Assembly (NCBI GenBank): GCA_947034885.2
Contig: OX344753.2
Coordinates: forward strand, 3,348,001 to 3,412,000
Direction: 5' to 3'
Source: Thuidium tamariscinum
Taxonomy: Eukaryota > Streptophyta > Bryopsida > Hypnales > Thuidiaceae
Length of the DNA stretch: 64,000 bases
Shown here: in pieces, positions 1-58,518 of the stretch
Layout: each line of letters opens with the position of its first letter
Numbering within the stretch: position 1 is the stretch's first letter
Translations under genes and position numbers: made by a program
Notes under the pieces: generated by a model
The model's database searches: none
Told to the model about the DNA's origin: nothing
What the model saw: the letters and a program-made list of their open reading frames with translations, nothing else

Positions 1-430
1 AATATTATATTGTATCTAAGCCTATCAAGTACACTTTGGAATTCTAGGCGGCAAATTCTACATAGTCCTATTATATCTACAATGTCATTTTGTACTTAAT
101 CAACCAAAGATGGGTAGATGTTGGCTAAAGTAAGCATGTCATTTTGGTCTTCATCAACAAACTAAATCACTACGAGCATGTCATAGTATTAGTAGATAAT
201 TTCTTTACATTACCCTGTTTGTTTAAGAAGCTTGTTAATCTTTGAAATTATGCCACAAGAAAGAGGTTGCAAATTAGTTCATTGTTTCTTCTTTGCAAGT
301 TAAAAAGGTTTGAGTCAAAGCCTGTATTTTTTTAATACCAGTGCAAATTTTGTAGTAGGAGGTTGATCTACTTGTAAGTATTGGATGAATGGCATTTGCA
401 AAGACATTGATTATACCTTGTATGGGCCCT
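1..430 (+). pseudogene. Decayed piggyBac transposase fragment (cut by window edge)
   Basis: From base 18 one reading frame follows the transposase at 30673-32412 almost residue for residue. It reads KPIKY...EF (there KPTKYGFKF), then a segment ending in VDVG, then EHVIVLVDNFFTLPCLFKKL (there KHVIVVDNFFTSPSMFKKL). This frame is broken by several in-frame stops. After a frame change, CKYWMNG near 373-393 matches CKHWVNG of the other copy. The VDNFFT motif carries the second catalytic aspartate of the piggyBac DDE nuclease (family knowledge). The N-terminal part lies off the window and the C-terminal end fades after about 430. It is a non-functional relic, more decayed than the 30-kb copy, and shows that more than one piggyBac insertion reached this locus. 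Confidence 0.85.
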
Positions 431-3620: not shown

Positions 3621-3934
3621 CATAAGAGGATTTTCAGCTGTTGTATAAGACTACGAGTTCCCAAACGGTGGGAACGCATTGGAAACTCTGGGAACGCGAT
3701 GTTGATGTGGTCGAGTGACTGCCACATCAATTTTAATTAAATATTAAATTTTTTTTAAATATTTTTTTTAAACATTTTTTTCTCTTTAATACATTCTGAA
3801 GTTTTTTGGAAATTTTTTTAAAAAAATTCAAAATTCAAAAATTCAGACCAGCAGGGGGCTGGTCTGCAGCAGTGGGAACAATTTCGGGGAACACCCCTGA
3901 GACAGTCTTTTGGGGGCCCAAAAATCCTCTTATG
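3621..3934. mobile_element. Inverted-repeat element, GAGACT family, copy 1
   Basis: The ends are CATAAGAGGATTTT and AAAATCCTCTTATG. Inside are paired GC-rich blocks (gagttcccaaacggtggg; gactgccacatca; gaccagcagggggctggtc; gacagtcttttggggg) around an AT-rich centre. The block order repeats at 44024-44353, 55265-55515 and 58519-58850, where the sequence differs but the inverted ends are retained. No clean target duplication is visible. It is non-coding, and the superfamily is not assigned. Confidence 0.8.
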
Positions 3935-4091: not shown

Positions 4092-7076
4092 ATTCATTTA
4101 CATTACAACTAATTAAAAAAGAAAACATAGTTTTCATTAGCTAAATCTTAATTCATAGATTTTTGAATAATTCTAATACATGATACTTCTCAACTCACAA
4201 TCAATAAATAATTATTCACTAAAAATGTCTTAAAGTAGAAACTTTACCTTTAGAAAGGATTAGAAGAAAGTGGTTGCAATACTTCTAATAGTAGCTATGA
4301 TCTTTGAGACACTTAGAAAGTAGGTTATGCAAATTGTTGGCAAAGTGAACTTATAGGTAAGATACAAGATTCTACTACTACATATTACCAAGAGATTACA
4401 TTCTACCTTGTTTTTAATAATATTTGATAGTAGGATCATACATGAATGAAGCATGATACAAATTGAAAAGAATATAATGAAAATGGTGTACATTTTCAAC
4501 AATTTCTCTCAATAACTTTCTCTATCGGTGATTTATTATACCTTTTTTCAACATCCATGTACAATCTACCTTCAATATTTGTTAGTTTTTCAATAAGTGT
4601 TAACATTGCATATGTGTTAAGGAAAATTGCATTGACCCTAAAACCAAAAAATACACTAGTAAGTGTTGATTGTTAAGAGAATCTATAAAAAATACCTTTC
4701 CTTCTTTGATAAATTCACCTTGATAATTGTTGATTCAAATGAAATTGAGGCTACAAAATTTTATAACTTTGGCTCATGAAATTGAGTTTTATCCATCATG
4801 TACTATACAAATTATGTTATGATTGTCATTAATAATAATGTATACAACTCACACTATCTTTATACATCATCCATTCTACATTCACTACACATTGTACATC
4901 ATGTAGGCAAGATTACCCATAAACTCCATCAATTGCTCTCACATGTGGAGTGTACATTAATAACTTTGAAACAATTTCTAGGACAAGGACCTGATGATGT
5001 TACACCTCTCATCCATAGCATTCAAACATTTCAAAAGGAAATACAATCATAGCATGTACATGAGTCTCATCAAACTACTTTAGATTTGCTCAAAATTTCA
5101 TTATACTTAGATATATGATGACATTCATATCTTATGTATTTTCATCTTTTATTTACACAAGTATCTATATTGTCAATTTCAAAGTTGCACATGTTTTATT
5201 CATGTGAATGTTACAAATTGTCTATGTTAAAGTATTGAAGTGCTAACAACATATAAGTATTAAAAGTTTCCGTGCTTTGAAATGTTTAAATCATGCTCTT
5301 GGCAATAGAAACAATATCAACATTCTAACGAGTACATAGTGTTTTGTAATTAACCTTTAAACATCAAGGAAGATGTTTTGTACTCGTGGAGGTTAAATTT
5401 GTGCTCCAATGCAATTGTTAGGAAGGTTGCAATTCCATGGCTAGGTGATTGCAAGAAACACTTGCCGATTTTGTTGTGTCTGGCTGATTTTTTTAGGAGT
5501 ACTTTAAGATTAGAAATGTATACACCTCTAAGACAAAGGTTTTCACCAAAGGAAATGGATAGAAAAATTCTCTAAGTAGGAAAATATGAAAAGTGCCAAA
5601 CCTCAAGAAAATACATATCTTCATGTTTTAATTAGGAAAAAATAGTAAAAATAAGTATTTTCAAAAAATAAAAATGTCCATTTGCAACAACTCTATAGTG
5701 ATAGTTATTCACTAAAAAAAACATCAAAATGATATTTTATATGTTTCAAAATACCAACATAAAGGAGCTCACTTTGTAGACCTCCACAATACATAAAATT
5801 AACTATTTTTGAAAAACCTTCCCCGAAGAGCTAGAGGTCTATTAAAAGACCATCTCATCTGAATTTCATCTCAAAATCATTAAAAAAAAAGGTATTCCAT
5901 AGTACTAAAAATCCCTAAACTACAAAGTGTGACATCCAATTGTGGTCTATTTTTGGATAGTAAATTATTTTTTAAAATTATGAAAAAATAGGGAAGGTTT
6001 AGTTATGAGTACCTTCCCTTCAAATCTTGAGTCAATTGGAGCAAAAACACAAAAGTTACGTCCAAAACATAGATCAACATATGTAGTGTGACACAAAATA
6101 GGACAAGTGTTTTTTGCAATCACCCGGCTTCAATATGTTATTGTAGTTGTGATTAACATTTTAGTTTTTTTGTTTGCCCCTTGAAGTGTCTCATGAAGTT
6201 TGAGATTCCTGGATCATTATGACGACAATGCCTTTTTGTCTAAAAAAGTCTAATTGTAAAAGCCTAGTTGGAAATCCAAATCCTGAAAAAGAAAGAGATG
6301 CTGAGGATTATAGATCACTCATTTTTCACACATTGCCTAAGAACCACCCTTGTTCATCTTTTGTAAATTGGCGGCACATTGGAGGGCCTCAACTAAAAAA
6401 AGTCTCTTTGCTATGCAAGCTTTGTTTCCAATCTTTTTGTTTGTCACTATAGGGCTTAGGGTCCACCTCCTTACATGTATCAGTGGACAAGAAAACTTCA
6501 TAAAGAGTACAATGTTAAGTAGTCTTTGCACATTTATATAGACCTAGTGGGTGGAGATGGATACAATAAGAAAAGTATATATATTAGATTCTCTCAAGCT
6601 TGACAAGTCTTTGCCAATGAGATTGTTGACCAAATTGGTGAAGCTTCTCATCTTCCATTCTTACTTGTCCACCCTAGCAAGACAATCACCGCAGAGGTGG
6701 TGAAGCTTCTTTTGTCTTATTGTTTGAACAAGCACTATGCTTGGCCATTGGGACAACTAGTGCTTGTTTTTTGTGCAATTTGTTGTCAAATTGCACCAAA
6801 TAATGGGCCATGCACAAAGCCCTTAGAACATAAACAATAAAATTTTGGATGAAACCACCAATAAACTTCAAATAAAAGAAAATATTGGATGAAATCACTA
6901 GATAATGGATGAAAACAAAATTATAGGTATGTAATATGTGCTAATATGATATTTTATATCCAATATATAAATGTATGTTAAAATTTGGAGCACCACTATA
7001 AAATTTAGTATTATTATTGTGAAATTTTGGCATTTTACAAAAAATGAAAAATGAAAATACCTTGGGCTAACATGTA
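4092..7076. other. AT-rich sequence, no gene recognised
   Basis: Contains only short frames without recognisable domains (for example 4798-5052, 5378-5575 and 6219-6452). Composition is the AT-rich background of the window. Confidence 0.5.
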
Positions 7077-8329
7077 AGGTAAAAGGTTCTAAAATGAAAC
7101 AAGCTCTAAAATGGAAAATGATCAAAAGGTACATTTGCACTCTCCAATGGACAAATTGTCTACATTTGAGGAGGTGGTTGATTTTAGATTCCATTGAAAT
7201 GAATTTTTTCCAACTTCAAGAATTTGTAACTAATTCCATGAAGGTTCAAAAAATATGAAACAACTTGAGTTAAATGTCAATTTTCCATTTTCTTTTTATG
7301 AAAAATTATTTGAAAATACTTCAAGGAGTGCCAGCTTATCTAAAATGCAAATCATTTGTTAACTCCGAAAGGCCCAAGGCCATTTTGGGGGTCAAAAAAC
7401 ACTCAAAACTACCATTTTTGTTGCATTCATCCAAGTGAACCAAAAGAATCTTTTTGGAATCCAATCATAACTAGGATCTTATAGTTTATTCTTTTGAGAT
7501 CATGTGGTAAAAATCTCATGAAGTTTGACTATATAGATTGGAATATATTTGTGTTCAAAGTTAGAAAAAAGAGTTATTTGTAAACATTGTCTTGCAATTT
7601 TAGATGACTTTGACTACTGTCTATTCAAAAATTTTGCACTTTAAACTTTGAATTAAGAAAATTTTGTATTGAAAAATTGAGTTGAAAGTCTAGGAATTTT
7701 ATTTTTAAATTCTTGATTTTCATTCTTTAAAAAATTATTAAATAGAGGTAGATTTGAAATTGAAAGAAAAACTAAATTGTTAAGAGGTCTAAGATGGGAT
7801 CAAAACACAATAATCCCAATAGTGTGATTATTATAGCAAGAAACTTTAACCTTGTCAACAATTTTTTTTTATAAATGATGAAAATTGCATTAAAAAATGA
7901 ATCCTATGAATTATTTCTTGGAGAAGATGTTCAAACTGTCCCCCAAATAAGATTCACAACTGCCTCCAAAACAAGATTCATAACTTTCACACAACTAATT
8001 CAAATGGAATGAGTCAAAGCTTCAAATGTAGACAAAAATATAATCTATGAGATAAAATTAATTAATTTTAATATCAATATTTTGTGGATTTATTTTTTTG
8101 CCTACCAAGTTGAAATTTTGGCTTTTTGTGGTGTAACTTTGCTTTCAGGCACCAATTGAAATACAAATTATATTCCCACATAGCTAATCAATTTTCCTAT
8201 CTTATAAAAAATTTTAAGAAAATTTCACTAAAAATTGAAGTCATTGAAACCTACTTGAACTCCAAATTGTCGCTTGAAGGGATGATGGGCTTTTAGGGGT
8301 TAAGTGGTCTATTTTAGGACTTCCTACCT
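7077..8329. mobile_element. TA-flanked MITE (~310-bp family) split by a TTAA element
   Basis: The left end is TA|AGGTAAAAGGTTC at 7075. The right end, CATTATAGGAC-like then TTCCTACCT, is at about 8304-8329. The two halves are separated by the piggyBac-like element at 7359-8303. Removing that insertion and one TTAA gives about 312 bp, close to intact relatives at 48274-48600, 54838-55142 and 35913-36209. Shared internal landmarks are a stretch like tatgaaacaacttgagtta and a ccaattccacttg-like stretch. It is non-coding. Confidence 0.8.
7359..8303. mobile_element. piggyBac-like non-autonomous element, TTAA-A family
   Basis: Bounded by TTAA at 7359-7362 and 8300-8303. Ends are TTAACTCCGAAAGGCCCAAG and its inverted partner GGGCTTTTAGGGGTTAA. 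The closest relative is 39417-40346, in the opposite orientation and nearly the same length; both contain an internal stretch like ctaggatcttatag and the gttgcattcatcc motif. TTAA duplication with CCC-rich ends is the piggyBac signature (family knowledge). No transposase is encoded, so it would need one supplied in trans. Confidence 0.85.
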
Positions 8330-8332
8330 CAT

Positions 8333-8570
8333 GGTTGCTACTATGTGAGCATAGAAAGTGTGATCCTATGAGCCTAGAGTCCTATACACCTATAATATAG
8401 GTATTCATAATATACACCTCAATGGTAATAGTATATCTATGTTCTAAATACCTATATTATAAATGTTAATTTTATAAACACCTTCAATGAGTGTAGGATA
8501 CTTACTTGTATTTAGGCTCAAGGCTCATAGGCTCACACTTCTATGCTCACATACTAGTGTTGTTGCCTCC
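8333..8570. mobile_element. GTGAGC-family inverted-repeat element, copy 2
   Basis: Left end GGTTGCTACTATGTGAGC, continuing agaaagtgtgatcctatgag; right end is the complement, ctcataggctcacacttcta then ATGCTCACATACTAGTG. The arms are about 40 bp and well matched, making this the best-preserved copy of the family also seen at 1301-1536. The interior contains ACCTATAATATAGGT-like palindromes. It is wedged between two other transposons. Confidence 0.75.
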
Positions 8571-8574
8571 TACC

Positions 8575-9551
8575 TTAACCCTTCATTGCCTAAGCTCCAA
8601 ATGGGTCTAAAAGCATCTTTGCTTTTCAAGCCTTATAAAGTTAAATGTCAATAAAATATGAAAATCTCAACTATACAATCTTGTAGTGTGCATGTTGTAG
8701 ATGATGTGGATAAAATTTGGAGTCATTTGACTGCATAGATTGTAAGATTTTAATACTTTAGTCTTAAAAAAGATGCTAATTTTTTCCCTAAAAACACATT
8801 TGGAGGTGAAATCTGAATCCTAAACCTACTCAAATGAACAAATTTTAAACTACAAAGTGATTCAAAACCAAAATACAAACACATTGGTGAAAAAAATTTC
8901 ATTCAAATGCTTTGAATTATTTGCAAAATGACTTTGAAATGTCAAAGAAATAGTAAAAAAATGTGCAAAAAATGCATCTATTATTACACCTCCTACTAAA
9001 ATGTTTCTCTGTCACTCATAACTTCTTGGATTGATATGACATTTTAGTCACACCAACTGGATTGGAATGTGTAACTTTTCCAACAAAAACGATTAGAAAT
9101 AAGTATTGTATGAAGAAGAAACAAGCCGCCAAAGTTCATTGTAATCAAAAAATGTTTGGCTTTTGAACTTTGAATTGTTCCCTAACATTCAAAACAACTT
9201 GGATTGCCATGAAAATTTGACCACAGTAACTAGATTTCTTGATTAATATAATTCAACAAATTTTATTGAAAACAAACATTGGATGAAGGAGATACAAGCC
9301 CCCAAAGTTGCAATCATCAACTGCAATTTAGTGAACTCAAAATGAACCTGTAAACTTTGACTGGCTCCCAAAATATTTGTACATCTTGTATTGGTCTTAA
9401 AAATTTTCCACACAAACTAGACTTGAATGTGCAACTTTCCCAGCAAAAATTTATTGAATTTGGACATTGAATGCAAAAGTTATAGCAATTTCAATTAGAC
9501 TGCCAGATTATGGGAGGACACTTTTTGTCCCCTTAGGCGATGAAGGGTTAA
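8575..9551. mobile_element. piggyBac-like non-autonomous element, TTAA-B family
   Basis: TTAA flanks at 8575-8578 and 9548-9551. Terminal inverted repeats are TTAACCCTTCATTGCCTAAG and CTTAGGCGATGAAGGGTTAA, matching at 19 of 20 positions. Length is 977 bp. The partner copy at 38122-39123 shares long internal blocks, including cataacttcttggattgata. It has no transposase reading frame. Confidence 0.88.
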
Positions 9552-9976
9552 CTGATTTGCCATCATGTACATCTATAATTAGAATGCAATGGACATTAAA
9601 AATACAACCAAAGTTTATATTGTGATAAAATATTCAATTTTATGAATTGGAGAAGAAACTAGAATAGGAGACCTCCATTTCATAAGTTGGGCTCAATCTC
9701 AAAAAATGGCATTTTTAAGGGGAAATTTCAGATTTACTCAATTTCTCAAAATACACTAAAATGGCAAATTTTGCCATCTGTTTTTCTTAATTACTTCTCA
9801 ACCACATGAAAAAAACACATCAATTAGACTAAGAATTCAATAGGACACTCTTCGTAACTCAACATGAAAGATCATTGAGAAAAAAATAGGTGGAAAAACT
9901 ACTCTTGAGGCCTTTTGCTGGCCCAACGAAGTCAGCCGAAAGCCACAAAATGGCTCCCCTAGCACTATTGGGTTAA
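9552..9976. mobile_element. piggyBac-like element, TTAA-D family, left-truncated
   Basis: Matches the right half of the complete element at 47193-47928. Shared blocks include ctcaaaatacactaaaatgg, the gccatctgtttttc-like stretch and a right end CACTATTGGGTTAA (there GGCATTAAGGGGTTAA). The left half is missing and is replaced by the TTAA-B element, whose right boundary it abuts. The right TTAA (9973-9976) is shared with the next element. Confidence 0.75.
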
Positions 9977-10202
9977 CCCTGTAACGTTGCGGTGGACCAC
10001 TCTGGTCTGATGGATGACAAAGACTTCTTGCATGTAGGACAGAATTGCAATCATTCATCCTCGGTTTTAGGAGTGAAAAGTCAAGATCTTCTATAGTTCT
10101 TTGACTTCAAATGAGTTTTTTTGAATATTTTATTAGCAATGATTCCCACGGTTTTAAAAATCATGAATTTCACATAGACCCCCCGCATCCTTACAGGGTT
10201 AA
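9973..10202. mobile_element. piggyBac-like MITE, TTAA-E family, 230 bp
   Basis: TTAA at both ends (9973-9976, 10199-10202). Ends are TTAACCCTGTAACGTTGCGG and CCGCATCCTTACAGGGTTAA. The second copy is 25034-25251; both contain a gatgacaaagac-like stretch and the agatcttctatag / ctttgacttc block. It lies directly against the TTAA-D fragment and shares its TTAA, as expected if it inserted at that element's flank. Confidence 0.85.
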
Positions 10203-13481: not shown

Positions 13482-14110
13482 TTAACCCCTAAAGTTCCAA
13501 GGTCCTTTTTTTCATCAAAAAACATTCTAAATTGTCGTTTCTATAGCAAAGAGTAAAAAACAACTTAATGTTAATTTTGCATATTCAATAATAGGATCTT
13601 ATACTAGACTAGTGTAAGAATGCATGCAAGAAATTTTAGAAACTTTGACCATGTAGATTGCAAGATATTTGCATATAAATTGAAAGAAAAAAAATTCATC
13701 TTGTTCAACTAATTTTTTTGGCTTTGAACCTTCTTAGCTTAAAATAATAGCTCTACCAATTTTGAATTTTTAACTTTATATGATGAAGAGTTGAGTCGAG
13801 AATCTAAGATAAAAATTATTTAAAAAAATAACTTAGTTTTTATTCATTAGAGAATTGTCATGTAAAAGTAGGTTCAAGATTGAAGGAAAAACAAAATCAT
13901 TAATAGCTCTAAGATGGAATAAAATTACACTAGTCTTAGTGACAAGATTTTTCTTGCAAAGTTGCAATAGATATTAAAGTTGTGAAACTTTTTTTTGAAA
14001 AATTGTGAAAATTGAGTTCTAAAGTGAGTCCTACAAGTTATTTGATACCAAGAATTCTAGAACAAAATGAGAATAATTAAGTAGTACAAATCTGAGGGCC
14101 GCACTTTGGA
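13482..14110. mobile_element. piggyBac-like element, TTAA-A family, right end lost
   Basis: Starts TTAACCCCTAAAGTTCCAAG, then a tttcatcaaaaaacattc block and ataggatcttatac, as in the 7359 copy. A TA-type MITE end (TA|AGGTAGAAGGCGG at 13452) lies only 28 bp to its left, suggesting insertion into that MITE. No right terminus is recognisable, so the end is approximate. Confidence 0.5.
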
Positions 14111-14639
14111 GAAAATAATCATAAGTATACAAACAACACACAAGTCACATAAAACTATATGAAGGACTTGCATAAGGGATTTTTCATGTTCCAAGGGACA
14201 AATTTGCTAGTCATGTTACCAACAAATGGAGTCCTAAACCATGTCATATTTCTGAAATTTTTTATGAAACTTATTAGATTTAGTTGGGTACTTGTTACAT
14301 GATCACAACAATGTTGAGACCATAGGAACCTATTCAAAATCCATTTTGTTCTATAAGGGGACATTGAGACTTTAGAGGTTAAAATGTTTTGACGTTCCAA
14401 TAGAAATCATGAATTGATGAAACATAGATGATCATCAACAATACATGTGAACCATTTTAGAACCTGATTTGTTGGACTACCTTCTACCTTACTATACTTT
14501 GAAAAAATAAGTAGAACTTTGAAATCTTCAATTTATTTATACAACATCCAAATAGAAAATAAACATCTAATACCTTGAATTATTTCATAATTAAGTGAAT
14601 ACAACCAACTAATTCTTTGTCTCCTTAACAATAGAAGTT

Positions 14640-15029
14640 ATACTCAATAGATGAAAGTCACATCAAGGATGGAGAATTTTCTTAACCCTATAAGAACAGC
14701 TTGGTTTCTATGGAAATCATGCATTTTGAACCTATGTGAATCATCTACTTAAAAAATTCAAAAGTATTTATTGAAGACCAAACTATTGTTCATGACCTCC
14801 ATTTTTGCACAAAATTTCAAGGATGAACAATTGTAGTTATGTCTTATATACAAGAATCCTTTATCATACATCGGTCACTTAGTGTATACAACAACGTTAC
14901 ATGGTTAAACATAGTTCACTAAATAGACCACCATTTTCTTTCATTCACATACTAGGAGTATTAAATCCCAATTGAAGAGTTATAAGGCTAAATATGGGAC
15001 ATATAGAGGGACCCAAGGGCATTTTAAGA
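14640..15029. repeat. Dispersed repeat flanking TTAA elements
   Basis: Blocks such as atttcaaggatgaacaattg and the sequence before it recur near 53920-54120, 35780-35870 and 56940-57060. The stretch tatagagggacccaagggca just before 15030 matches the left flank of the element at 41908. The repeat is non-coding and its class is unknown. Confidence 0.5.
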
Positions 15030-15960
15030 TTACCCCCTAAATGCCCAAGGCTTGTTTTGAGCTTCTTGGAATTTGCTCTAAGTTGAACAAAATGCCAATA
15101 TTTTGATAAGTTGTATCAATTTTTTTTGGAATTGTACCTGTACAAGTTCAAACCAGACATGTTAGAGGTAGCATAGGAAAAGAAATCACAACCATATCTC
15201 TTATGGGGTGAAAGATTATAATGTTTGACTATGAGGATGTTAAAATTGCAAAAGTGATGTGAAGTCTTTCTATCCTCTTTTTGCAAGTCAAATTTGAAAA
15301 GTTGGTGACCAAAAAAATATGAGGTTAAAGGGCCTAACATGCATAACTTCAATCAATTTATGGCTTTTCCAAATTTACTTTACAATTTTTGTAAATGAAT
15401 TTTGAATGTGATTTTCTCTCCACAATTTAGAGTATTTCAGGCTCATTTTTAAGAGCTCTCAACACTATGGGAAGTCAAGATTGCAATGGGTCCCCTTGCA
15501 CAAAATCTTGAATAGAAAAATCACTATTATTCATTTCCCACATCGTATTTTTGACATTGAAACTAGATTTCTAGAAGAACTTTTCAAAAATATAAACTAC
15601 TAAAAATAGCAACTTGATTAGGTTTTATTTAACTTCAAAGTTTTGCAAATACCAGATTCTAGTGTCTTGGGCATTTAAGGTGGCTACACCTAAAATTGCA
15701 CCTCACCTAAAAGTGCCATCTATAGTTGCAATACATTTCTAAATTCCATTATGTACCTATTTGGCTGGAGTGCTTTCAGAAACAGACTTTAAACCTTAAT
15801 AAACTTTTGCATATTGTATCCAAATATTGCATTTTTTGGTGCATTGGAACATGCTTTCACTTGCCAAGAAGACTATATGAAAATTTGATCAGACTAGTAA
15901 TAGTTCCTAGGCACAGTACCAAAAAGTGGCACTTTTAGGTGTACCCACCTTAGGGGTTAA
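15030..15960. mobile_element. piggyBac-like element, TTAA-C family, interrupted
   Basis: Begins TTACCCCCTAAATGCCCAAG (first TTAA mutated to TTAC) and ends GGGCATT...TAGGGGTTAA. A 273-bp TA-flanked MITE sits inside its right terminal repeat at 15678-15950. Removing it restores GGGCATTTAGGGGTTAA, the complement of the left end. The related copy is 49899-51011; shared internal sequence includes aaagggcctaacatgcataa. It has no coding capacity. Confidence 0.82.
15678..15950. mobile_element. TA-flanked MITE, 273-bp family, copy 1
   Basis: Starts AGGTGGCTACACCTAAAA and ends TTTTAGGTGTACCCACCT, flanked by TA on both sides. Same length and layout as 46633-46905 and 58090-58362, including gtgcattggaacatgctttc and a gcgcc/ggcgc-bearing block near each end. 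It inserted into the right end of the TTAA-C element. Confidence 0.9.
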
Positions 15961-24711: not shown

Positions 24712-25278
24712 AGGTAGGAGCACCCATTAATTTCAATGTATCCACTGTTTGACACTAGTAAGAGTTCCCTTGAAAGTATCCCCAAAAGTACTTTGAAACC
24801 TTAATTTCGGTTGGTGGGCTTTGATTTTTTTAGATTTTGGTGTGAGGATTAAGCCACGTTTACGAGGAGTGGAAATTTAGGTGCTCCAGTGAGTCCTACT
24901 TTGAAAATTCATAGAAACTACATACCTTATCCAAAAACTCCTTTTAAAAAAAATTTAATTCATGATTTTCAGTTGCTATTAATGCAAAAATATTCTTGTT
25001 AGGAAAAGGTGCCTCCAACTATGCTGAAATTGCTTAACCCTTAAATGACGCTGCGGACTGCTGAATGACAAAGAATCTTTCCTTCCATGACAGAAATGCA
25101 ACTTTTCATCCTTGGTATTGGGGGTGGAAAGGGAAGATCTTCTACAATACTTTGACTTCCAATGCATATATTTGGTTTTCAAAGTAGGTGATGTCACACG
25201 GTATCAAAATGCATGGTTTCCGTGGCCACCGGTCCATCCTTCAAGGGTTAAATTGGCTCCTCAAAGGTGCTCCTACCT
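24712..25278. mobile_element. TA-flanked MITE, 353-bp family, split by a TTAA MITE
   Basis: Left end TA|AGGTAGGAGCACCCATT, right end GGTGCTCCTACCT|TAG. The interior is the reverse complement of 45335-45687 (for example tttggttggtggg-like and gattttggtgtgagg blocks). It is interrupted by the TTAA-E element at 25034-25251. Removing that element and one TTAA leaves exactly 353 bp, the length of the 45335 copy. Confidence 0.88.
25034..25251. mobile_element. piggyBac-like MITE, TTAA-E family, 218 bp
   Basis: TTAA at 25034-25037 and 25248-25251. Ends are TTAACCCTTAAATGACG and CATCCTTCAAGGGTTAA. The interior matches 9973-10202 (gaatgacaaagaatc, gggaagatcttctacaatac, tttgacttccaatg). It is nested in the TA-flanked element above. 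Confidence 0.88.
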
Positions 25279-26091: not shown

Positions 26092-27044
26092 TAGTGAAGG
26101 AGGGGGGATTCCGTAGAGATTTTCGTTGTACTTTTATCAAAGTTGGATCCTATGGAATCCATTTGGACAACCCCTAGTTTGCATGAAAGACTTGTAGTGA
26201 AAGCCCAACTAAACTTAAGGGAAATTGGCTTTCTACAAAATCTGTTGAAGTAGAATGTAGAGTATGTATCTTTAGGGATTCTATTAACCCCTGTGTGTCA
26301 GGGCGGATGTTTTTCCGAGATGTTTTTCAAACGTAGGGAATTGAAACTCTGTTTTCCTTAGCGGATTGTTCATTTGCATTGGATTTGCAAATTAGGCACT
26401 ATTTAGGGTTCTCTGCAATGGTAAATCACGCTAGTGCATGTGCTGGATTGGCCTCAAGGTGCCATAATTGTCGATTGCTACATTCGGGGTACGCAATAAC
26501 AGTCTGAGTAGTGCATTTTGACCGGATATGGCTAGTGACTAGCCGTTGAAGGGAACTGTATAATTTGTAACAATGTTTGTTAGTGCTAAAAGAGATGGCT
26601 ACAAACTTGAATGTGAGGTCGTGGAGGTTAGTTTAGAATGATGTTTGCGGCAATTAGGACGGACACAAGTGAGAGAAGAGGTTCCCGCTTCTAACCCACT
26701 ACTTTCTTTCAACAGTCATATTGCGGAAAGACAAGTGCAACATTCTGGTAGCGATGGCATCTACTACCACTGTAAGAAAACAACAAATTTTGGGACATAA
26801 AACAAACGCGATTTCGTGTCAAAGACGATGTCACCTAAAATCCGTCAAAATGGACAAACAAAAAACATGGCGAAAAAAACGGAAAACACATTCTTTTTTT
26901 TTAGACATCCTTCAAGACAGGTCAATTTGAGGGCTCCAAATAGTGCCATTTGGCAGTGTGGGAAGGTCCACATCAGCAACTTTTGGGTGGGCAGTGCTAC
27001 CTATGATTTTTTTTCGTCCATTGCCTCATCCATGTTTTTTGTGA

Positions 27045-27139
27045 CGTGGACCTCCAAATTATGCTAACATGGGCTTCTAAATTATACTGACTTGGACCCC
27101 AAATTATGTTGACATGGAGTCCAAATTATGCTGATGTGG
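27045..27139. repeat. Minisatellite, ~4 units of 22-25 bp
   Basis: Four degenerate units built on (g)acatggactccaaattatg: gtggacctccaaattatgct, gggcttctaaattatactga, ggaccccaaattatgttgac, ggagtccaaattatgctgat. They lie inside the 5' part of the large piggyBac-like element. Confidence 0.8.
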
Positions 27140-28099
27140 CATGCTTTGTTAGCACACTTTTGGGTCACTTGAAAATTGTAATGGTGTTTTTTAAGATGTA
27201 AAATTAAACATCAGTTAGTACACTATATCTACAATTCCAAGTCAGAAAATAAATAATATTAAAATATAAAATAAAACAAAACAAAACAAAAAATTATTAA
27301 ATTAAAAAACTTAAAAAACTTACCACTTACCTTTTTGAGAATTTTTGATGGTGACATGAAAAGATTACTTCATTTAAAGTTAATGAAAATAAAGGAGAGA
27401 AAGAATATACTTATATCCTTTCTCAGCCTTAGCTGAGACAAAAGATATGGGATTTGAGAAAATGGTAACTTGACAATTGAATATGTTGATGTCATTTGAG
27501 ACATGTCACGTCATTTCAAACATCAAGATGTTTTCTTAAACATCTCAACATTATTTTTCCATATTCCATATGGATTGTCTTTCCTCCCACCACTGGACTA
27601 GTATAAAGACCACTTGTTTTCATCCATATTATGCATCCAAATCATCCATCCATTCCCTTTTTTTTTGCAAAACATGTCATGTGGCTGCCCTTTCTCTAAA
27701 TTTTTCACTTGTGGTCAATTTTTTACCACAAACCATAAATTTTTTAATTAATTTTTAAAAATTAGAATGAACTCTTTGCTGACATGGCCATCTATGTTTT
27801 TTTGGATGTTTGAAAAAATCTTACCATGTTCTATGTGATGTCCAAAAAAACATCCCTGTCTCAATGGACATATCCACATTGCACAAAAAACATGCAATGT
27901 TTCCAATGACATCTAATAAAATCCTACGAGCACTGTTGCATTTTTTAAAAACATGACGTGTTTTTGTTTTGATGACACAGAAAACGCAAGTTTCTTATAG
28001 TGGACAGTTGAGAATTGTGAGGCAAGACTAACATCTGAAGAAGAAGCTGTAATCTCCCAAAGACTATTTAGTTGAGCATACCATGAGCATAAGACAAAC

Positions 28100-29174
28100 A
28101 TTCAAACAGCACGCACAGTGACTAAGTGCTTGAATGAGGATTTCCTCTTCTCTCTTTCTACACCTTGGTTCAACCACTAGTGGCCAACAAGCTCATTTGA
28201 GCCCCATAATTGGCAATACTTATTCAAGAGGCAAGTAGGAAGGCTTTTACACTGGAGCAAACGATTCCCAAAGGGCAATCCACAAGGCTTCCCAACAGAT
28301 ATTGATACCTTCATTTTTGAGTTCTGGTAGCTAGATCGCAGTCACCATGAAAGAGCAGGCGCAACAAAAGGCGCAATCTTGATTGAAGGCAAGGCCTCTT
28401 CAAGAGAGAAGTAGAATCACACGTGCCCTTCCAAGCGCAAGAGAAACACATTCTCAGCCACCACAAGTCACGCCCGACGTCTGCGAGCAGCTTCACTTGG
28501 GGGATATCAAAGGCCAGCAAGAAACCACCGGGTAGAGGAACTCAACGACACCGCAAGTGACTCAGAGTCCACTTTGAATCAGAACCCTAATTCATGACAA
28601 CTTGTAGAATGGGGCGGGGCAAAGTTGAGGTGCATTGGGGGGAAGACGTGGAGGGAGGCGAGGTGGGAAGTTTGGGAATGCACCTATAGCAGCTCAGGGA
28701 GTGGTGGAGTCGACACTTTCTGTTCTGTTGCAACAAGACGGGCAAGATGAACAAGGTGAATGAGGCGGGCGAGGCGAACAAGGTAGGCCAGGCCAACCAA
28801 GTGAGTAAGGCGGGCAAGGCAGGCGTCAGGAAGGGGGCCGGGGAAGGAGTGCTCCTGATTCCTCACCGACGGCATGGCGTGCATTCCACATCACAGTGAA
28901 TTGACACTTACCACCAATTTTGAGGAAGCGTCCAACACGCAATCCATCCAATTGGAAAAGTCCCAATACTCTAATTAGAGTAGCTTCACAATGTGCGCGT
29001 TGAGGGGTGGGTCTACGGTCAGGGAGTCGGGAATTTGCTACGCATCCTCCCGTCGGAAGGGATGTGGCACACTCCGTTGATTTTACGACTAGGCAACCTC
29101 ATCCAACCAAGAACACTCAAGGAAGAGTAGCACAAAATTTAGCGGATTAATTTGAGAATGCTGCTTCTCTTTAA
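28100..29174. other. GC-richer internal part of the 7.2-kb element, no gene recognised
   Basis: Frames of 60-80 codons occur on the minus strand (28311-28520, 28587-28884). The latter is a low-complexity translation of a gcgggcgaggcg / caaggtaggccaggcc purine-rich array near 28735-28830. I see no domain. Its origin, captured host DNA or transposon sequence, is undecided. Confidence 0.35.
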
Positions 29175-30095
29175 GATTGGCTACATGGGTCAAATCACAC
29201 TGAAAGGTACCAAAGGCATTACTTTACTAGGACATGACTAGAGTCCTTTTTTTAAGTTTCAAAGCTTTAAATTACTTTGATGTTGTCATTTTTAAGAAAA
29301 AATAATAAATGGATAGTATTGCTATGGGTTCTTTTGATGATTTTGAAAAAAAAATTCATGAAAAAAATCCTTAAATAAATGTAAATCAGGCTAAATTTAG
29401 GAATTTTTTTACAATATAGCACTTAAGAAGGATTTTTTATCAGAATTTTTTATTCTTATCAAGTATATAGTTATAAAAAAGGATTTTATGAAAATGATTC
29501 TTAAACTAAAAATAGTATAATTTTTTAATCAATTAATTGATTATTGACAAAGTATTAATTTGTTCTAAGAACAAAATTAAACATTTAATTTCAAAAAATA
29601 ATAATACAGAGACCTAGATGTCAATAATATATACACTTTTTGTTTTGACACAATCATCATTTGGATTATTTTATGTATTGAAAAAAACGTTCAAAAATTT
29701 TTACTTCTGAATATTATAGAAAATAAAAATATAATCAATTTGTGTCAAAAATGTCCTTTTATGCTCTATCATATGAATATATACATATATGATTTTTTTG
29801 GATTCAATCACATTATAATTCATTAGAAATTAGACTCCTTTTTGTCCATTTAAAAAGCTAACGCATTGACAATTCAAGTACAATTGGATTTTTAGTAAAG
29901 AATTTTTCTTTTTTCTATGAATAAAATACTATTAGTCTTAACATGATTTGAAGTTCTAATCAAAAAGGACTAAAGTATTTAAAATTAGTAGATTAGCATT
30001 AGAAAACAATAGATTGAAAGAAGTTACATTGCAGATTTTGGTGTGTCTGACCTCTTTTGTGGTACATTCCAGTGTGATTTGACCCACATACAATC
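29175..30095. mobile_element. Inverted-repeat insertion with very AT-rich interior
   Basis: Left arm GATTGGCTACATGGGTCAAA then TCACACTG...GGTACC. The right arm is the complement (GGTACATTCCAGTGTGA then TTTGACCCACATACAATC). The arms match over about 35 bp with a few differences. The roughly 850 bp between them is much more AT-rich than the host element on either side. No target duplication or reading frame is evident. It may be a non-autonomous DNA element of unknown superfamily that landed in the piggyBac-like element. Confidence 0.6.
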
Positions 30096-30672
30096 ACGGA
30101 TTTGGAAAATAATGTTGATTTTACGGGTAGTGTGGACATCAAAACTCCTGTTGTAGCAACCACCGGAGCCTCACTTAGCCATGTTGGTTACTCGGCTACA
30201 ACACCAGGTGCCTCCGAGGTATGTATTATTATTGGAGATTGGCTCCCTCAGGCCCAATAGTGTGTCCCTGGTTTTGTCTATGGGCAATTTGGAGCACAAC
30301 TTTCACAAAACATTTGGGTGGACTTGAACATTCTTGGATTCGATGCAAGACAATGGAGAAATGTGAGGTCGTTTTTGGTGGGAAGATGATGTGCAATGGT
30401 TTGGAGTTGAATTCTATGCTCCAATTGGATGGCGGAAGGTTGCAGTGAGTGATTGCCATTCATTCGAGTTCATGGCACCAAGATTAGAGGGATACACCAG
30501 GCATGGTCCACATTCACCGCAACAGTCACCAAGACATGATGGGAGTGTTGACATTCATAGGAGCAATGGTGTCATAGCACCTTGTGTTTCAAAAGAGGTC
30601 AATATGCCTCAATGGAAGTTGCAACATCCCCCTAGTTGTAAAGAGCCAACTGGAGATTCAAATCAACCTTGA
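30096..30672 (+). other. Possible 5' coding relic upstream of the transposase
   Basis: From about 30101 to 30218 a frame reads TDLENNVDFTG...VGYSATTPGASE and meets GAG|GTATGT, a good match to a plant 5' splice site. From 30391 to the TGA at 30670-30672 a second frame reads QWFGVEFYAPIGWRKVAVSD... and ends in SNQP. The piece has a protein-like composition but I recognise no domain. It could be N-terminal transposase sequence, a second element-encoded protein, or chance. The splice site is inferred from consensus only. Confidence 0.3.
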
Positions 30673-32412
30673 AACTATAGTCCATTCATTGCATGGGATG
30701 GATTTACAAGCGACTTGATTGACTCAAGTTGGATGGCAGGATTTCGCGATTTCACAAGTAACAATTCCGACGACTTCAACCTTGACTTTGAATTAGAAGA
30801 TGAAGACAATATCCACTTGTTGGCACCTGAGTCGCTAGATGCCAATTTATATCGCCATTTTTGCATGGATGATGCTCGGGTGAGGGCTGATTATATCCAT
30901 CAGAAATATGATGATGCACATTGGGGTCAGAGTAGGGAGACGTTAGTTGGTGATTGCTCCACTTTCCTTAGACTTGAACTAGAAGCCTTACGTAGGTTGA
31001 CTCGAGCTACACAACTTGCAATCCATTTTTTCAATCTGTTTTTTTTATGATGCAATCATTCATTGTTTAGTACATGAAACCAATCGTTATGCAACCCAGA
31101 TATGTTAGAAGTATTTGGATAGGACAAACAGTAGAGAAGGTTGGCGTGACATTTGTGCTATTGAGACGAGAGCTTGGCTTGGGTGTGTCATACTAATGGC
31201 CATCAAGCAATTTCCGACCATTAGAGATTACTGGAAGATGGACTCTTTCTATAGGTGCACTATCAGTCCAAAAGTTTTTAAGAGAGAACATTTTGAATTG
31301 TTGTTGCGTTGTCTTCACGTAACAAACAACAACTCTTTGAAGACTGATAGGTCACAGGCCAATTATGATAAGATGGGGAAAGTTAGGTTCTTGGTTGAGT
31401 ATTTTGTGAGGAGATCCAAGGAGTTGTATAACCCTGGTAGATATATTACAGTGGACAAAATGATGGTAGCTTATAGAGGGCATTACTTCAGCATTAGGCA
31501 ATGCATGGCAGCGAAGCCTACCAAATATGGTTTTAAATTTTGGGTAGCTGTGTCGACAGAATCCCGTTACATTTCCAATATAATTCCTTATTTGGATAAG
31601 GGCGGAGAGGTAGATGTGGGGCAAAGTGAGCGTGTTGTTTTAGACCTAATCCGTGGACTTGAGTATCGGAAGCATGTGATAGTAGTAGATAATTTTTTTA
31701 CTTCACCCTCTATGTTCAAAAAGCTATTTGATCTAGGCACTTATACGACAGGTATGCTGAAGGGGCCAAGATTAGGTGTACTGTCTCTTCTATATGGCTT
31801 CAAGAGAGGTGAACATCCCCGCCCAACTCTCTTTTGGCTTATTCATGAGGACCACCATATGGCAGCAACAATGTAGTTCAATTCAAAGCTTGTGATGTTT
31901 TTGAGCACTAGTACTGATCCTATTGCACCTAGGCCACCTACATGTAAGCATTGGGTGAATGGCAGGTACGATGACATAGAGACCACCCCTCAACAATTAG
32001 AATATGCAAAGAACATGGGGGGGTTGACGTGGTAAATCAGATGAGGAGAGATTACACTTGCCAATTTCATAGTCATAAATGGTGGCATAAGATGTTTTTT
32101 TTCATTCTAGATTCCAGTCTTTACAACAGTTGGATACTTTTTGGTGAATACATATAGGGGAGGCAAGAGAATTTAGGAATGCACAAGTAATTTTACTACT
32201 AGATTGCCCAGACCCTCATAGAGCCCACTTTCCCTCTTCTTCGCACTATTCATCCGAGTGGCAAAAATCCAAACCTTGTGCACTTTCCTCAATCTCACAA
32301 AACCTTAGCTAGGCAATGCGTGAAGTGTGCTCGAAAGCAAAACAGTTACTGTGAAGCGTGCAAGAATGTGTATGTGCCGTAGAACTTGTTTCGTGCATGT
32401 TCACAATTGTAG
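30673..32412 (+). pseudogene. piggyBac transposase pseudogene
   Basis: In life this would be a DDE transposase that excises and inserts DNA at TTAA. Visible motifs in order are an acidic N-terminal stretch (DFELEDEDN), the domain entry near 31010-31100 (VHETNRYATQ), REGWRDICAIETRAWLG, VDKMMVAYRG (first catalytic D), KPTKYGFKFWVAVS, VIVVDNFFTS (second D), GTYTTGML, CKHWVNG, then MGGVDVVNQ (third D, with the usual fourth D replaced by N), and a C-terminal cysteine cluster (CVKC...CEAC...C) ending at TAG 32410-32412. Lesions seen: a one-base shift in the T run near 31040-31047, a TAG at about 31106, TAG in place of the expected W codon at 31874-31876, a one-base shift in the G run near 32016-32022, and further stops near 32156 and 32380. 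The longest open piece is 31115-31876. It cannot make an intact protein as written. Confidence 0.93.
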
Positions 32413-33454
32413 GACTTGGGCCCTCAAGGTAGCTTCCATGTAACAGTTGCTTGCTTGCATTTTTCAAGATTGGCTCATTAAAACTGATGAGGCCCATTCA
32501 CCTAGCACCTAGAGTAGTTGCCCCATGCCAAGAGCGGTTCGTGTGGCTTGAAACCTTGCAGAATGTCACCGATTTGCCACACCAAAGAGTCAATGGGTGG
32601 AAAACGTGAACTCTCTCCCAAGCGCCATTTTGCAAAGCATTGTCTTCGATGACTCCTCACCGACCTTGCTGTAGGGATTGCTCCATCAGAGTTTACCTTT
32701 TCGGAGGCTTATTCATTGTAGATACTTGATAGTTTTGAATAGTGAATTGCATTTTGCTACCCGTAGGTTCTTTTTTAATGTGTTAATTCTGTAGTGGTGA
32801 ATCCCTAGTACATAGACATTTCATAGTAGGCATGGCAAATTATTTTGAAACATTGATTTTCATTTTTAAGAAACTGATGTTGAAATTTTGAAACACGACT
32901 ATAATTTGTGCATGTTGCGTTTTCAGTCCTTTGCCCGTTAGGGCGGTTACTATTGCTTGCATCCCAAGCCAAGGACTTGTTGAAGTTTGGCCCGGGGTCT
33001 TGAATACTAGGTCTTCTAGGTTGTCGCAAGCACATGGACGTCCCGGCTTTGAATGAACTGGCTCTAGCCCGACCCTTTGTTGTCCGTACCGTAGTGGAAA
33101 GTGAATGTGATGTGAAGTTGTGCATGTTTTGGACGCACTTGCAACAAGAATGTTTCGACTTTTTCCAATTTTTTTCCCCTGTGATTGTCAGTTTTGTTGG
33201 CTACAACATACTTGATTCCTGGATGAAAGTGATTCTTGGTCTAGCATGTACAAATTCCCAAAGATTTGACATGGAGAAAAAGCACCCGGATTAACAAATA
33301 AGCTTTTGCATTAGACATTATAATCTTCTCATCAGAATAGTGGACTTTTGAGAAAATTGGAGCTCTACACTCAGGCTCTAGTTGGGTTCCCAATGCAACA
33401 GTGAATTTTTCAACAAAGCGGTATACTAAAAATGCTTGTCCCTTCTTTCGGAGA

Positions 33455-33474
33455 CCCCCCCCCCCCCCCCCCCC
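33455..33474. repeat. 20-bp homopolymer C tract
   Basis: An uninterrupted run of 20 C close to the right end of the 7.2-kb element. It may vary in length or reflect sequencing error. Confidence 0.9.
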
Positions 33475-33520
33475 TTGGCTTCTCACTTCTGCCAATCTTA
33501 ATGCGACATATAGGGGTTAA

Positions 33521-39416: not shown

Positions 39417-40346
39417 TTAACCCCTAAAGGACCATTGTCCCCTCGGGGGACAATTTGGAGTTCGGGCAGGTCCCGTAGACCTCAATTTTTAATGAATCTT
39501 TTTGAAACTTTCTCGTAAGATGGGAAAACTAATTATCTTCATAGGAATGTAATTTTTATTTCAATTGGTGACCGGGAGCAAAAGTTATACCACAAAAAGC
39601 CCAAATTTTCATTCGGTGGGCAGAATTTTCTTTTGCAAAAAGTCAAATTTTGATTTTCTTAAAAGAAAAATATAAAATAATATGTTTTTGCCTACATGTG
39701 AAGCTTTGATTCATTCTATTTGGACTTATAATGAGAAAGTTATGGACAATCTTGTTTTTCGGGCAATCTAAACAATTTCCTAAGAAAATAACTTATAGGA
39801 TTCATTTTTGAATGCAATTTTTACAATTTTTCAAAAAAAATTGTTGGACAAGGTTATGTTTACTTGCGAGAAAAATCTCACCATTGGAATTATTGTATTT
39901 CAATCCCATCTTAGAGTTATTAACCATTTAGTTTTTCTTTCAATCTTGGACCTACATCTACTTAACAATTTCTTAAAGAATGAAAATCAAGTGTTTTTTG
40001 TGTGAAATTTTTTTCTTAGACTCTCAACTCAAGTTCTTAACACAAAAAATTATATATTCAAATTCTATAGTGCAATTTTTTTTACAAATGACACTCAAAG
40101 TCATCTAAAATTGCAAACCACAGTTCAAAAAAACTTGTATTTCCAACTTTGAATGCTCATATCTTCCAATATGTAGGGTCAAACTTCATGAAATTTTTAC
40201 CACCTGATCTCAATAAAGTTAAGTACAAGATCCTATGGTTAGATTCTTAAAAAGTTATTTTTTTTGTTTTTTTGGGTGAATGCAATAGAAATGGCAGTTT
40301 TGAGAGGTTTTTGACAAAAAGAAGGCCTTGGGCCTTTAGGGGTTAA
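39417..40346. mobile_element. piggyBac-like element, TTAA-A family, most complete copy
   Basis: TTAA at 39417-39420 and 40343-40346. Ends TTAACCCCTAAAGGACCATT and GGCCTTTAGGGGTTAA are well matched over about 14 bp. Near the left end is a small palindrome (gtcccctcgggggac). It is inverted relative to 7359-8303. It contains only short frames and no transposase. Confidence 0.9.
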
Positions 40347-44023: not shown

Positions 44024-44353
44024 CATAAGAGGATTTCTGGCCCTTCTACAAGACTGCAAGTTCCCAAACACTAGGAGTAAAGTGGGAACTCTGGGAACCC
44101 CATGCTGATGTGTTCAAGTGACTGCCACATCAGATAATAGTAATTAATTAATTAATTAATTTTTTGAATTTTTGAATTTTTTTAAATTATTTTTTTCTTT
44201 CTAATACATTCTGAAATTTTTGAAAAAAATTAAATTAAATTATTTTTTTCAAAATTCAAAAATTCAGACCAGCAGAGGCTGATCTGCAACGTCGGAACAG
44301 TTTCATGGAATGGCCCTGAAACAGTCTCTTGGAGGCCCAGAAATTCTCTTATG
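44024..44353. mobile_element. Inverted-repeat element, GAGACT family, copy 2
   Basis: Ends CATAAGAGGATTTC and GAAATTCTCTTATG. Interior landmarks match 3621-3934 in order: gttcccaaacac, gactgccacatcag, ccagcagaggctga, gaaacagtctcttgg. An AATT/TTAATT-rich centre separates the halves. Confidence 0.8.
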
Positions 44354-45689: not shown

Positions 45690-46632
45690 AACCCAGTCTT
45701 AGTTTAACTTACTTAATGAATGATGCAAGACGTGACCGTATGGATGGAATTGGCGGCCTTTTGTTTGGTGAAAGTGGTATTCAGACTTGACTGATTGATC
45801 GCGGCCAGCATGACTGAGTTGGAATGTGTACGCGACAATGCCCACCAAGGGGTAAACACCGACCTGGCCATGGCAGCTGATTTCAGGAACCCTATTGATG
45901 GCAGAACATTAGGAACTTTCAAACTGACACCATTGCCGTTGTTATATCAATCTACAACTCCATTGCATTTGTGTAAAAAATTTTAAAAATTTTAACAAAA
46001 TGAAGAAGATGATGAATCATGACTCTCACTAGCTGGAAGACCAGTGTATGAAATTAAACGTGTTGGAGTATGATCTCTCATTCGAGTGGAAAGGAAGAAG
46101 GAAGAAGGAAAAAGATAAAAGGAAATCACTAAAACTACTATTCAAATTTTTTAATCAAACTTTTCAATGTAAATTGTAAGTTCCAATTGTTGTCCAAAAT
46201 CCAAGACTTAAGGTGTATAACTTGTTTACAACTAGAACCTAATTTGTGCAAAATAGGATGACCTGTTTGAATGAATTAGGGGAATACAATGTGGTCTTAA
46301 CAACTTCATTGTTGCGTGACAAATAAGACACTGGCACTTAATGAAGTTGCAAAGACCAGTTTTTAGTCTTAGCCTTTTTTGAAACATGTTTGCCATTACA
46401 TTGAGAATAAGTCAAATTGTAATCTACACTTCTATAATTTCTACTATTTCCAATCTCAATGAACATTTAGCAAAGAAAATAGTGCAATCTCCATTACTTC
46501 TACTCTTTCATTAGAAGAAAATCATCCCCCCTATCATTGCTCAATAAACATTTGCTACAATACTTTACATTAGGAGAAACATTTCACATACCTTAGAGCA
46601 ACCCCAAAGTTGCGATGTGAAGCAACAATGTA
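45690..46632. other. No gene recognised
   Basis: The first 270 bp is somewhat richer in G+C and open on both strands (45713-45922 and 45795-45986), without a domain. The remainder is AT-rich background. Confidence 0.45.
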
Positions 46633-46905
46633 AGGTAGGTACACCCAAAATGGCACCTGACCTTAAAGCGCCTTGTACAACGTGCATACATTTTCAAAAT
46701 CAGCCATGTACCCAGACTATAGATGGCGCTTTTAGAAACACACTTTGACTGCTTATAACTTTTGCATACGGTATCCAAATCCACTGTTCTTTGGTGCATT
46801 GGAACATGCTTTCACTCACCAACAAGACTGTAAAAAAATCTGAACAACATAATAACAAGAATTAGGCACAGTATGAAAAACTGGTGCTTTTCGGTGTACC
46901 TACCT
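46633..46905. mobile_element. TA-flanked MITE, 273-bp family, copy 2
   Basis: Left GTA|AGGTAGGTACACCCAAAA, right GGTGTACCTACCT|TAA. Same orientation as 15678-15950. Two gcgcc/ggcgc-bearing blocks (aaagcgcc, gatggcgctttt) lie near the left part. Confidence 0.9.
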
Positions 46906-47192
46906 TAAATGTTTTGCACCACTGATCTTCCTCTAAAGTGCAAAATATTTACAATGTTTTTTTGGGTTTTCTTTTCTTGAAACACATGAACATTTTCCAT
47001 TGAAAGGGGAAATTTACAATGTTATTTCACAGTGCAGCTGTGGGGTTGTGATAGATTGACAGTGGATAACTTAACTTACATCTTGTGAAGACAAAGAGAA
47101 TGATACCAAGGAACTGACTGATTCTCAGTCCCAGAGGAGTTTTTTACATGAAGATTCTCAGAAAACCCAGCCTGTGGGTTTGGGCCAGTTGT

Positions 47193-47928
47193 TTAACCCT
47201 TAAAGGACGGACCTATTACCACTGCTCTGAAGCTTCTCTGCTCATCACTTAGTTTGTTATCGTTTTGGAAGCAGATATGCCTGAAAATTTTTTATTTTAT
47301 TTTTCAGAGATGAAAGTACATGTCTTCTATACTCCACCAAAAAATTAGATTTTTTTGAGAAAAATTGATTCTTATGTGAATTTTTGAAGAAAAATTGAAG
47401 AAAAAATCATATCAAATAGAAAATTATCTCAAAAAATCTGAAAATTTCACCGTGTGTGTAAATTATAGTGACTAACATCATGATGGAAACTCAATTTCCG
47501 TGTACTTCTATAAATAGGATGAAATGGACATTAAAATTGCACCCAAATCTCAAAATGTAATAAAATATTCAATTTTACGAATTTTTTCAAAATTTCAATT
47601 GGAGTAGAAACTAGAAAGTAGGACCTTCATTTCATTAGTTGGGCTCAAACTCAAAAAACGTCATTTTCAAGGAGAAATTTCAGATTCAGTCAATTTCTCA
47701 AAATACACTAAAATGGCAAATTTTGCCATCCGTTTTCTCTAATTACTTCTCAACTACATGGAAACAAATAGTAGTTAGACTAAAAATTCAATTGGAGACT
47801 CTTTACAACTCAACGTGAAAGGTCAATAAAAAAAGAAGTGAATGAAAAAACTACTGTTCTGCTGTTCTTCTGCTCTTCCTCAGTCATCCAAACGCCAAAA
47901 AATGGCCCCTCAGGCATTAAGGGGTTAA
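47193..47928. mobile_element. piggyBac-like element, TTAA-D family, complete
   Basis: Left end TTAACCCTTAAAGGACGG at 47193. Right end CAGGCATTAAGGGGTTAA at 47928, immediately followed by a second gggttaa that gives an alternative boundary at 47935. The interior matches the truncated copy 9552-9976. No transposase frame. Confidence 0.8.
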
Positions 47929-57668: not shown

Positions 57669-58089
57669 AAATGAATTATCCTAATTATGCATGTGACACT
57701 AATTCACCAATTTCAAACTAATTCAAGTCTGTATAGGTTGAAATATCAATGTATTGCTCTAATTACCTCAATTTTTTTGGTGGCAACACTCAATTTCTAT
57801 GTGACGCTATATTTTTCCTCTTCCTAATGATCAGTACAAATCACTGTAGCCTTGTTTGTTCTTAAGTAATTAATTTTTTTATTATACACGTGGAAGACCA
57901 AGTTGGTCTACAATAAATCAACTTGCACCATCCACCAGGCCATGGCTTGAGTTTTAATCTTTCCTAGTAGAAAGATGATCAGGCAAAATCTTTGGGATTT
58001 TCCTATACGCTAGAGCTGTGTCAGTTTCTTGGTGGACCTGTATCTTACCGCTTTGGAACTCTGAAACTTTAACAGCTGCAAATAAGTTA
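57669..58089. other. AT-rich sequence, no gene recognised
   Basis: Nothing recognisable. Confidence 0.5.
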
Positions 58090-58362
58090 AGGTAGGTACA
58101 CCCAAAAGCGCCACTTATTCATACTGAGCCTAGTTCCTACTATTAATTAGTTCAAATTTTTATGTAGTCTTGTTGGCAAGTGAAAGCATGTTCCAACGCA
58201 CCAAAGAACGTAGGATTTGGATACTGTATGCAAAAGTTATTAACAGTCAAAGTCTATTTCTGAAAGCGCCATCTACAGTCTGTGAACATGACTGATTTCG
58301 GAAATGTATGTGCGCTGTAGATGGCGCTTTTAGGAACAGGGCGCTTTTGGGTGTACCCACCT
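58090..58362. mobile_element. TA-flanked MITE, 273-bp family, copy 3 (inverted)
   Basis: Left TTA|AGGTAGGTACACCCAAAA, right GGGTGTACCCACCT|TAA. Opposite orientation to copies 1 and 2 but identical in length. It contains gaaagcatgttccaacgcac and gcgccatctacagtc / ctgtagatggcgc. The ends are the best preserved of the three. Confidence 0.92.
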
Positions 58363-58518
58363 TAATGCAAAGGACAATGGCAGTCAATTTTTTTCTTCAT
58401 TGCAATGGTTGAGAGTTGGCAATTGGTAAGGATTAAAATAAATAAAATGACTAAGATTGTTCACACTACACTAGTGTGTTGTTGTCACAACCAAAATAAA
58501 AGTAAAAATGGATTTTTA

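Follow-up and report, generated by a model that had tools for sequence, protein, structure and literature searches.

The feature at 26284-33520 of the window, a 64,000-nucleotide stretch of DNA (C5:3348001-3412000) within a 363-Mb assembly of 19 contigs, is almost certainly an old, inactivated insertion of a cut-and-paste transposon of the piggyBac superfamily whose unit was originally about 5.1 kb long. As we reconstruct its history, that unit inserted at a TTAA, bringing with it 12-bp terminal repeats that begin with CCC and one long gene, whose product would have joined a DDE core and a C-terminal Cys-rich finger to an N-terminal extension of about 700 residues. Two later arrivals, one CACTA-like and the other an inverted-repeat element of 0.9 kb, inserted into the piggyBac unit, and the frame decayed. 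We infer how long its gene originally was from relatives elsewhere in the genome. By analogy with piggyBac, the element would, while intact, have excised and reinserted at TTAA. The features of the window that bear on this reading are collected in Table 1.

Table 1 Features of the element at 26284-33520 and of related sequences in the window
Feature	Position	Strand	Basis and details
Full-length decayed piggyBac-like element	26284..33520	+	7237 bp; 5103 bp minus two nested inserts
5' TTAA and 12-bp terminal repeat CCCCTGTGTGTC	26284..26299	+	Rank 10 of 1001, weight matrix
3' TTAA and 12-bp terminal repeat CCCCTATATGTC	33505..33520	-	Rank 6 of 1001, weight matrix
Nested CACTA-like insert, ends CACTGTAAGAAA / TTTCTTATAGTG	26768..28002	.	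GC 33%; not in C1 copy
Relic of N-terminal extension, first part	28611..29183	+	tblastn, intact-frame residues 232-416, E 3.6e-4 (no low-complexity filter; weak alone)
Nested AT-rich insert, inverted ends GGGTCAAATCACACTG...	29187..30085	.	GC 23.5%; ACAT duplication; empty site GGCTACATACAATC in C1
Relic of N-terminal extension, conserved block and acidic region	30291..31044	+	Intact-frame residues 472-499 and 508-740; chained with core, E 1e-134
DDE transposase core relic	31049..32028	+	Pfam DDE_Tnp_1_7 and 6x67 alignments
C-terminal relic, Cys-rich finger CVKCARKQNSYCEACK	32020..32402	+	Intact-frame residues 1073-1189 align at 32020-32364
Second, older piggyBac transposase relic	9..417	+	46% amino acid identity over 111 aa, E 6.3e-17
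Non-autonomous TTAA element, family B, 977 bp	8575..9551	+	TTAA ends, differing flanks
Non-autonomous TTAA element, family E, 230 bp	9973..10202	+	Other copies at 14682-14908 and 25034-25251
Non-autonomous TTAA element, family A, 930 bp	39417..40346	+	Self-BLAST, borders at TTAA; other copies at 7359-8303 and 13482-14382

Ends, second copy and original size

Animal piggyBac elements target TTAA and have ends that start with CCC. The first-pass annotation had placed two such ends 7.2 kb apart around a recognizable piggyBac transposase relic. These ends, TTAACCCCTGTGTGTC at 26284-26299 (+) and TTAACCCCTATATGTC at 33505-33520 (-), are identical at 14 of 16 positions, and their inverted similarity stops there, with none detected further inward. 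Both have the short terminal repeats starting with CCC, and the ends of some relatives start with CCT or TCC. In this AT-rich window, 29 TTAA pairs match at 10 or more of 12 inner positions when no anchoring is applied, which makes the 26284/33520 pair weak when taken alone. Anchored on TTAACC, eight pairs matched at 10 or more of 12 positions, whereas 200 dinucleotide shuffles gave 0.095 on average and never more than 2; this excess comes partly from the repeated families of the window, the eight pairs being non-independent. TTAACCC itself occurs 25 times in the window, compared with 10.7 expected (shuffle maximum of 20). The ranks in Table 1 come from scoring 1001 TTAA half-sites outside the training set with a weight matrix that had been built from 19 ends belonging to other elements of the window.

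The decisive evidence comes from a second copy on contig C1. Searches of the genome with the 5' 300 bp and with the 3' 721 bp each found two places, the window and C1 (C1:28696481 and C1:28704555, respectively); these counts are lower bounds, and very common words were skipped in the search. The two C1 matches are parts of one single copy, the body of which aligns to 26319-26763, 28003-29186, 30086-31909 and 31904-33504 with 76-88% identity and is colinear throughout. Homology starts at TTAACCTCTATGCATC and stops at GCACGGGGATTAA, with TTAA on both sides and unrelated flanks. Because this colinear copy is bounded by TTAA, a single element extends from 26284 to 33520, and the proposed pairing, for which a search for both ends together elsewhere had been suggested, is confirmed. 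TTAA target duplications with unrelated flanks were likewise found in the C10 family and in all five copies of a young family described below. Only two members of the family of the window element were detected genome-wide, such that the evidence for its mobility is this one other insertion. Positions 33455-33474, towards the 3' end of the element, are 20 consecutive C, where the C1 copy shows six, a difference attributable to replication slippage or an assembly artefact.

The C1 copy also corrects the size of the element. It lacks the blocks at 26768-28002 and 29187-30085, and its empty sites are visible; these 2.1 kb therefore entered by later nested insertion, and the element measures about 5.1 kb, not the 7.2 kb that had been supposed. 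The C1 copy measures 5217 bp when an insert of its own is subtracted, and the size of the window element is further supported because it is close to those of the young family (5094 bp) and the C10 family (5391 bp). Body segments have a GC content of 42-49%, compared with the lower values of the two inserts (Table 1). Members of the CACTA superfamily have CACT(A/G)...TAGTG ends and make a 3-bp duplication. On these end motifs, we take the first insert to be CACTA-like: its ends fit and its empty site is seen, its flanks (TAC/GAC) are imperfect as a 3-bp duplication, and its transposase content was checked in one small frame only. The second insert has inverted arms of 27 nt that are 93% identical. 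The insert within the C1 copy, which is 3.55 kb long and lies in the coding part, has TG...CA-type ends and an AGCAC duplication (read by eye; joined coordinates of about 6630-10182) and looks LTR-retrotransposon-like.

A decayed transposase with a long N-terminal extension

Assignment to the piggyBac superfamily, also part of the first-pass annotation, was upheld by protein comparison. The segment 31109-31873 matches Pfam DDE_Tnp_1_7 (E 2.6e-46), and the relic matches the piggyBac structure 6x67 (E 1.3e-16) as well as the piggyBat structure 9c0f. In the alignment to 6x67, read by eye, Asp is kept at the equivalents of D268 (codon 31454), D346 (31688) and D447 (32026), with a weak alignment around the third (E 0.13; Pfam for that part gave E 5.7e-7). 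Stops at 31106 and 31874 interrupt the frame, which also shifts near 31048 and near 32020, among other breaks, and differences between the window and C1 cores are spread near-equally over the first, second and third codon positions (32, 27 and 28, of 253, 254 and 253, respectively), as expected of two dead copies. The window copy thus has no intact transposase frame, which argues against the autonomy once proposed for it. Domestication of the transposase was considered and rejected, given the broken frame and the lack of constraint between copies. The C-terminal Cys-rich finger is present by alignment in the intact relative and decayed in the window copy, where a 59-aa piece of it had no Pfam match. 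For the remaining frames of the element, Pfam matches stayed below threshold, Rfam and tRNA scans found nothing, and no relatives were found by a scan of viral and prokaryote contigs. The second relic, at 9-417, matches DDE_Tnp_1_7 with an E of 0.0017, which is under the curated cut-off.

Upstream of the core, the intact frame of the young family accounts for DNA that had been left unexplained. Its residues 742-1189 align at 31049-32364, and its whole alignment to the window relic, including the two segments of the extension in Table 1, is colinear; much of the 5' sequence is therefore decayed N-terminal extension. In the C1 copy, residues 368-499 are aligned in its chained match. The suggestion that the 5' DNA might include a second reading frame or captured host DNA was not borne out, and capture of a host gene was rejected as its origin because the sequence from 28611 onwards aligns with the extension of intact relatives. 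Outside the insert, 26284-28610 had no protein match to the intact relative.

Of 30 loci of relatives in the genome, 29 show some part of residues 450-720 of the extension (four of them only the last ~100 residues) and 13 show residues 35-450, the loci carrying just 1.5 kb of flank. In seven comparisons, differences within the extension amounted to 0.62-0.69 at third codon positions versus 0.32-0.53 at the first two, an excess from which we conclude that the extension behaves as a selected protein segment. It contains a conserved block, LPxxVWVxLxxLGxxxxQWGGLxxFxGE...VxVxDC. Pfam returned no family over the extension, with no match to the conserved block at E 0.1 in 12 of 12 members, and a profile of the block compared with solved structures gave nothing convincing (best E 0.016).

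Two other readings of the extent of the element were weighed against these data. The shortness of the end match, in a window full of TTAACCC ends, could mean that the two ends come from different, shorter elements and are paired across 7.2 kb by accident. This is extremely unlikely, as the C1 copy joins both ends through one colinear body, and no other TTAA end between 26284 and 33520 has a weight-matrix score above 1.0. Similarly, solved piggyBac transposases have 578-594 aa, for which a shorter unit would suffice, and together with the lack of a protein match at 26284-28610 this might point to a true element of about 3 kb that begins near 30.1 kb, with the 5' 3.9 kb being unrelated. We find that scarcely credible, since the same 5' DNA (26319-26763 and 28003-29186) is present on C1, where the inserts are absent, and since TTAA-bounded relatives are 5.1-5.4 kb long and carry an extension that aligns to 28611-31044.

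Young relatives and short TTAA elements

The decayed 5.1-kb element has relatives in the genome, two of which keep an unbroken frame. A search for the transposase, in which 149 of 581 first-look candidates were scored, gave at least 150 match rows, and 21 of the first 30 had no stop inside the match (counted by hand, window included). Five of these first 30 loci share 99.6-99.8% identity over 3744 bp. Two such young copies were read whole: they are 5094 bp long and 99.7% identical, lie between TTAA sites, have perfect 16-bp ends (TTAACCCCTCACCGCC) and each hold an open frame of 1214 codons. The other three have the same ends with TTAA, in different flanks, but around the match their frames stay open for 580, 916 and 463 codons, being broken somewhere. 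A genome search with the 5' 565 bp of the young family found these five copies at 100% and four partial matches. The intact relative covers the whole DDE_Tnp_1_7 model (E 1.6e-76). From the near-identity of its copies, the young family appears to have been active recently, its jumps seeming to be of recent date. A further family, C10, includes an element of 5391 bp that is bounded by TTAATCCCTAAACGTC / TTAACCCCTAAGTGTC, and has a copy on C8 with matching borders.

Short, non-autonomous TTAA elements surround the feature (Table 1). First-look candidates, unconfirmed as copies, number 3514 genome-wide for family B and 2278 for family E, with 40 scored in each case. For family B, identity is 80-91% in all rows other than that of the window copy itself, and 24 of 41 rows (window's included, counted by hand) span 1-977 exactly. 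The ends of families A, B and E did not group with the element at 26284-33520. The end of family B at 9551 matches the 5' end of the young family at 83% over 36 bp (z 9.8). Weaker likenesses were found for the end at 49898, to the 5' ends of C10 (z 5.1) and of the window element (z 4.0), and for the C-family end at 47928, to the 5' ends of C10 (4.8) and of the young family (4.2); most other pairings of ends scored below 3. In a self-BLAST at E 1e-4, no neighbour had the subterminal DNA of the feature, the only match being the transposase relic at 113-257.

These comparisons bear on the proposal that the 26284-33520 copy is itself the progenitor of the surrounding TTAA elements. It shares with its neighbours a TTAA-CCC(C/T)T end consensus, and the end at 49898 is weakly like its 5' end. 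Nevertheless, a role as their source is very unlikely: each of its ends was detected in two places only (lower bounds), its frame is broken and it shares no subterminal DNA with the neighbours. Moreover, the 49898 end is nearer the C10 family, the 9551 end is far nearer the young family, and no internal-deletion derivatives that keep both ends were seen in the end searches. We infer that the many short TTAA-ended elements were mobilised by transposases of the same clade, encoded by families other than that of this copy.

Other repeats lie in the same window. At 25034-25037 (families D and E) and 9973-9976 (families C and E), adjoining elements seem to share one TTAA, as if one element had inserted at the border of another. 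A small repeat family with palindromic ends (TTAAGGTGGGTACACC / GGTGTACCTACCTTA) occupies 15675-15952, 46631-46918 and 58088-58365, with 74-83% identity between copies and a target duplication of TTA or TTAA. The repeat pair at 3621-3934 and 44024-44353, with ends CATAAGAGGATTT...AAATCCTCTTATG and unrelated flanks, is a further inverted-repeat element.

A piggyBac clade in a moss-like plant

That the host is a plant, as the first reading of the window had assumed, is supported by two sets of genes. The last gene of the window (63481-63999, +), which runs off its edge, is the start of a leucine-rich-repeat gene with an LRRNT_2 domain (E 1.5e-11) and LRR repeats, an arrangement typical of land-plant receptor kinases. 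Contig C19, which appears to be a plastid contig, has adjoining PsaB and PsaA frames without stops, and their best solved relatives are 8htu, 6l35 and 7ksq, presumably moss (Physcomitrium) photosystem I structures. We therefore regard the host as probably a moss.

Compared with 6x67 and 6x68, which we take to be the piggyBac transposase of Trichoplusia ni origin, the elements described here have the same DDE core with three matching Asp residues, C-terminal Cys finger, TTAA target and CCC-starting ends, but the 594-aa chain of 6x67 contrasts with a 1214-codon frame in the intact relatives. The DDE core of piggyBat (9c0f) aligns to the intact relative with an E of 3e-27 and its C-terminal finger aligns weakly, whereas the N-terminal extension lies wholly outside the alignment. 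The piggyBac element is given as 2472 bp in PMC10140906, compared with 5.1-5.4 kb here.

Accounts of the superfamily in plants are brief in the literature searched. Its occurrence in plants is stated in passing (PMC10140906, PMC10813416), and two plant genome papers (PMC8319324, PMC13084152) use the word piggyBac. The repeat table for Ceratopteris richardii (PMC6890710) has a PiggyBac row with 1230 annotated stretches totalling 122 kb; it likewise applies the piggyBac label in a land plant, but to annotated stretches, whereas the present genome offers complete elements whose ends are defined, frames without a break, and short derivative candidates in the thousands. In Daphnia, Pokey and its MITEs (PMC3849761, PMC4912750) also combine autonomous and short non-autonomous groups of the piggyBac superfamily, but in an animal host and with rDNA as the target in part. 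A search of the open-access literature for piggyBac, mosses and transposable element returned only PMC10619864, in which the matching text reads "piggybacking". No description of a young, amplified piggyBac clade with an extension of ~700 residues in a moss-like plant was found in the open-access literature searched. The superfamily is already known; the young amplified clade with its long extension in a moss-like plant is the new part.

On balance, we consider it rather more probable than otherwise that this genome is home to a very successful piggyBac clade that was active recently and bears a large N-terminal extension absent from Pfam, and that this clade seeded thousands of short TTAA-ended elements; the extension may act in targeting or chromatin binding, as a module specific to the clade. 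If this is true, piggyBac would be a main builder of the genome of a moss-like plant. Animal transgenesis relies heavily on piggyBac, whereas the literature searched says very little about its members in plants. Copies that are nearly identical and keep unbroken frames would make it possible to ask whether plants host active piggyBac elements, what role the ~700 added residues play and how one clade fills a genome with short derivatives, and the young family would offer a natural system in which to test seamless TTAA excision in plants.
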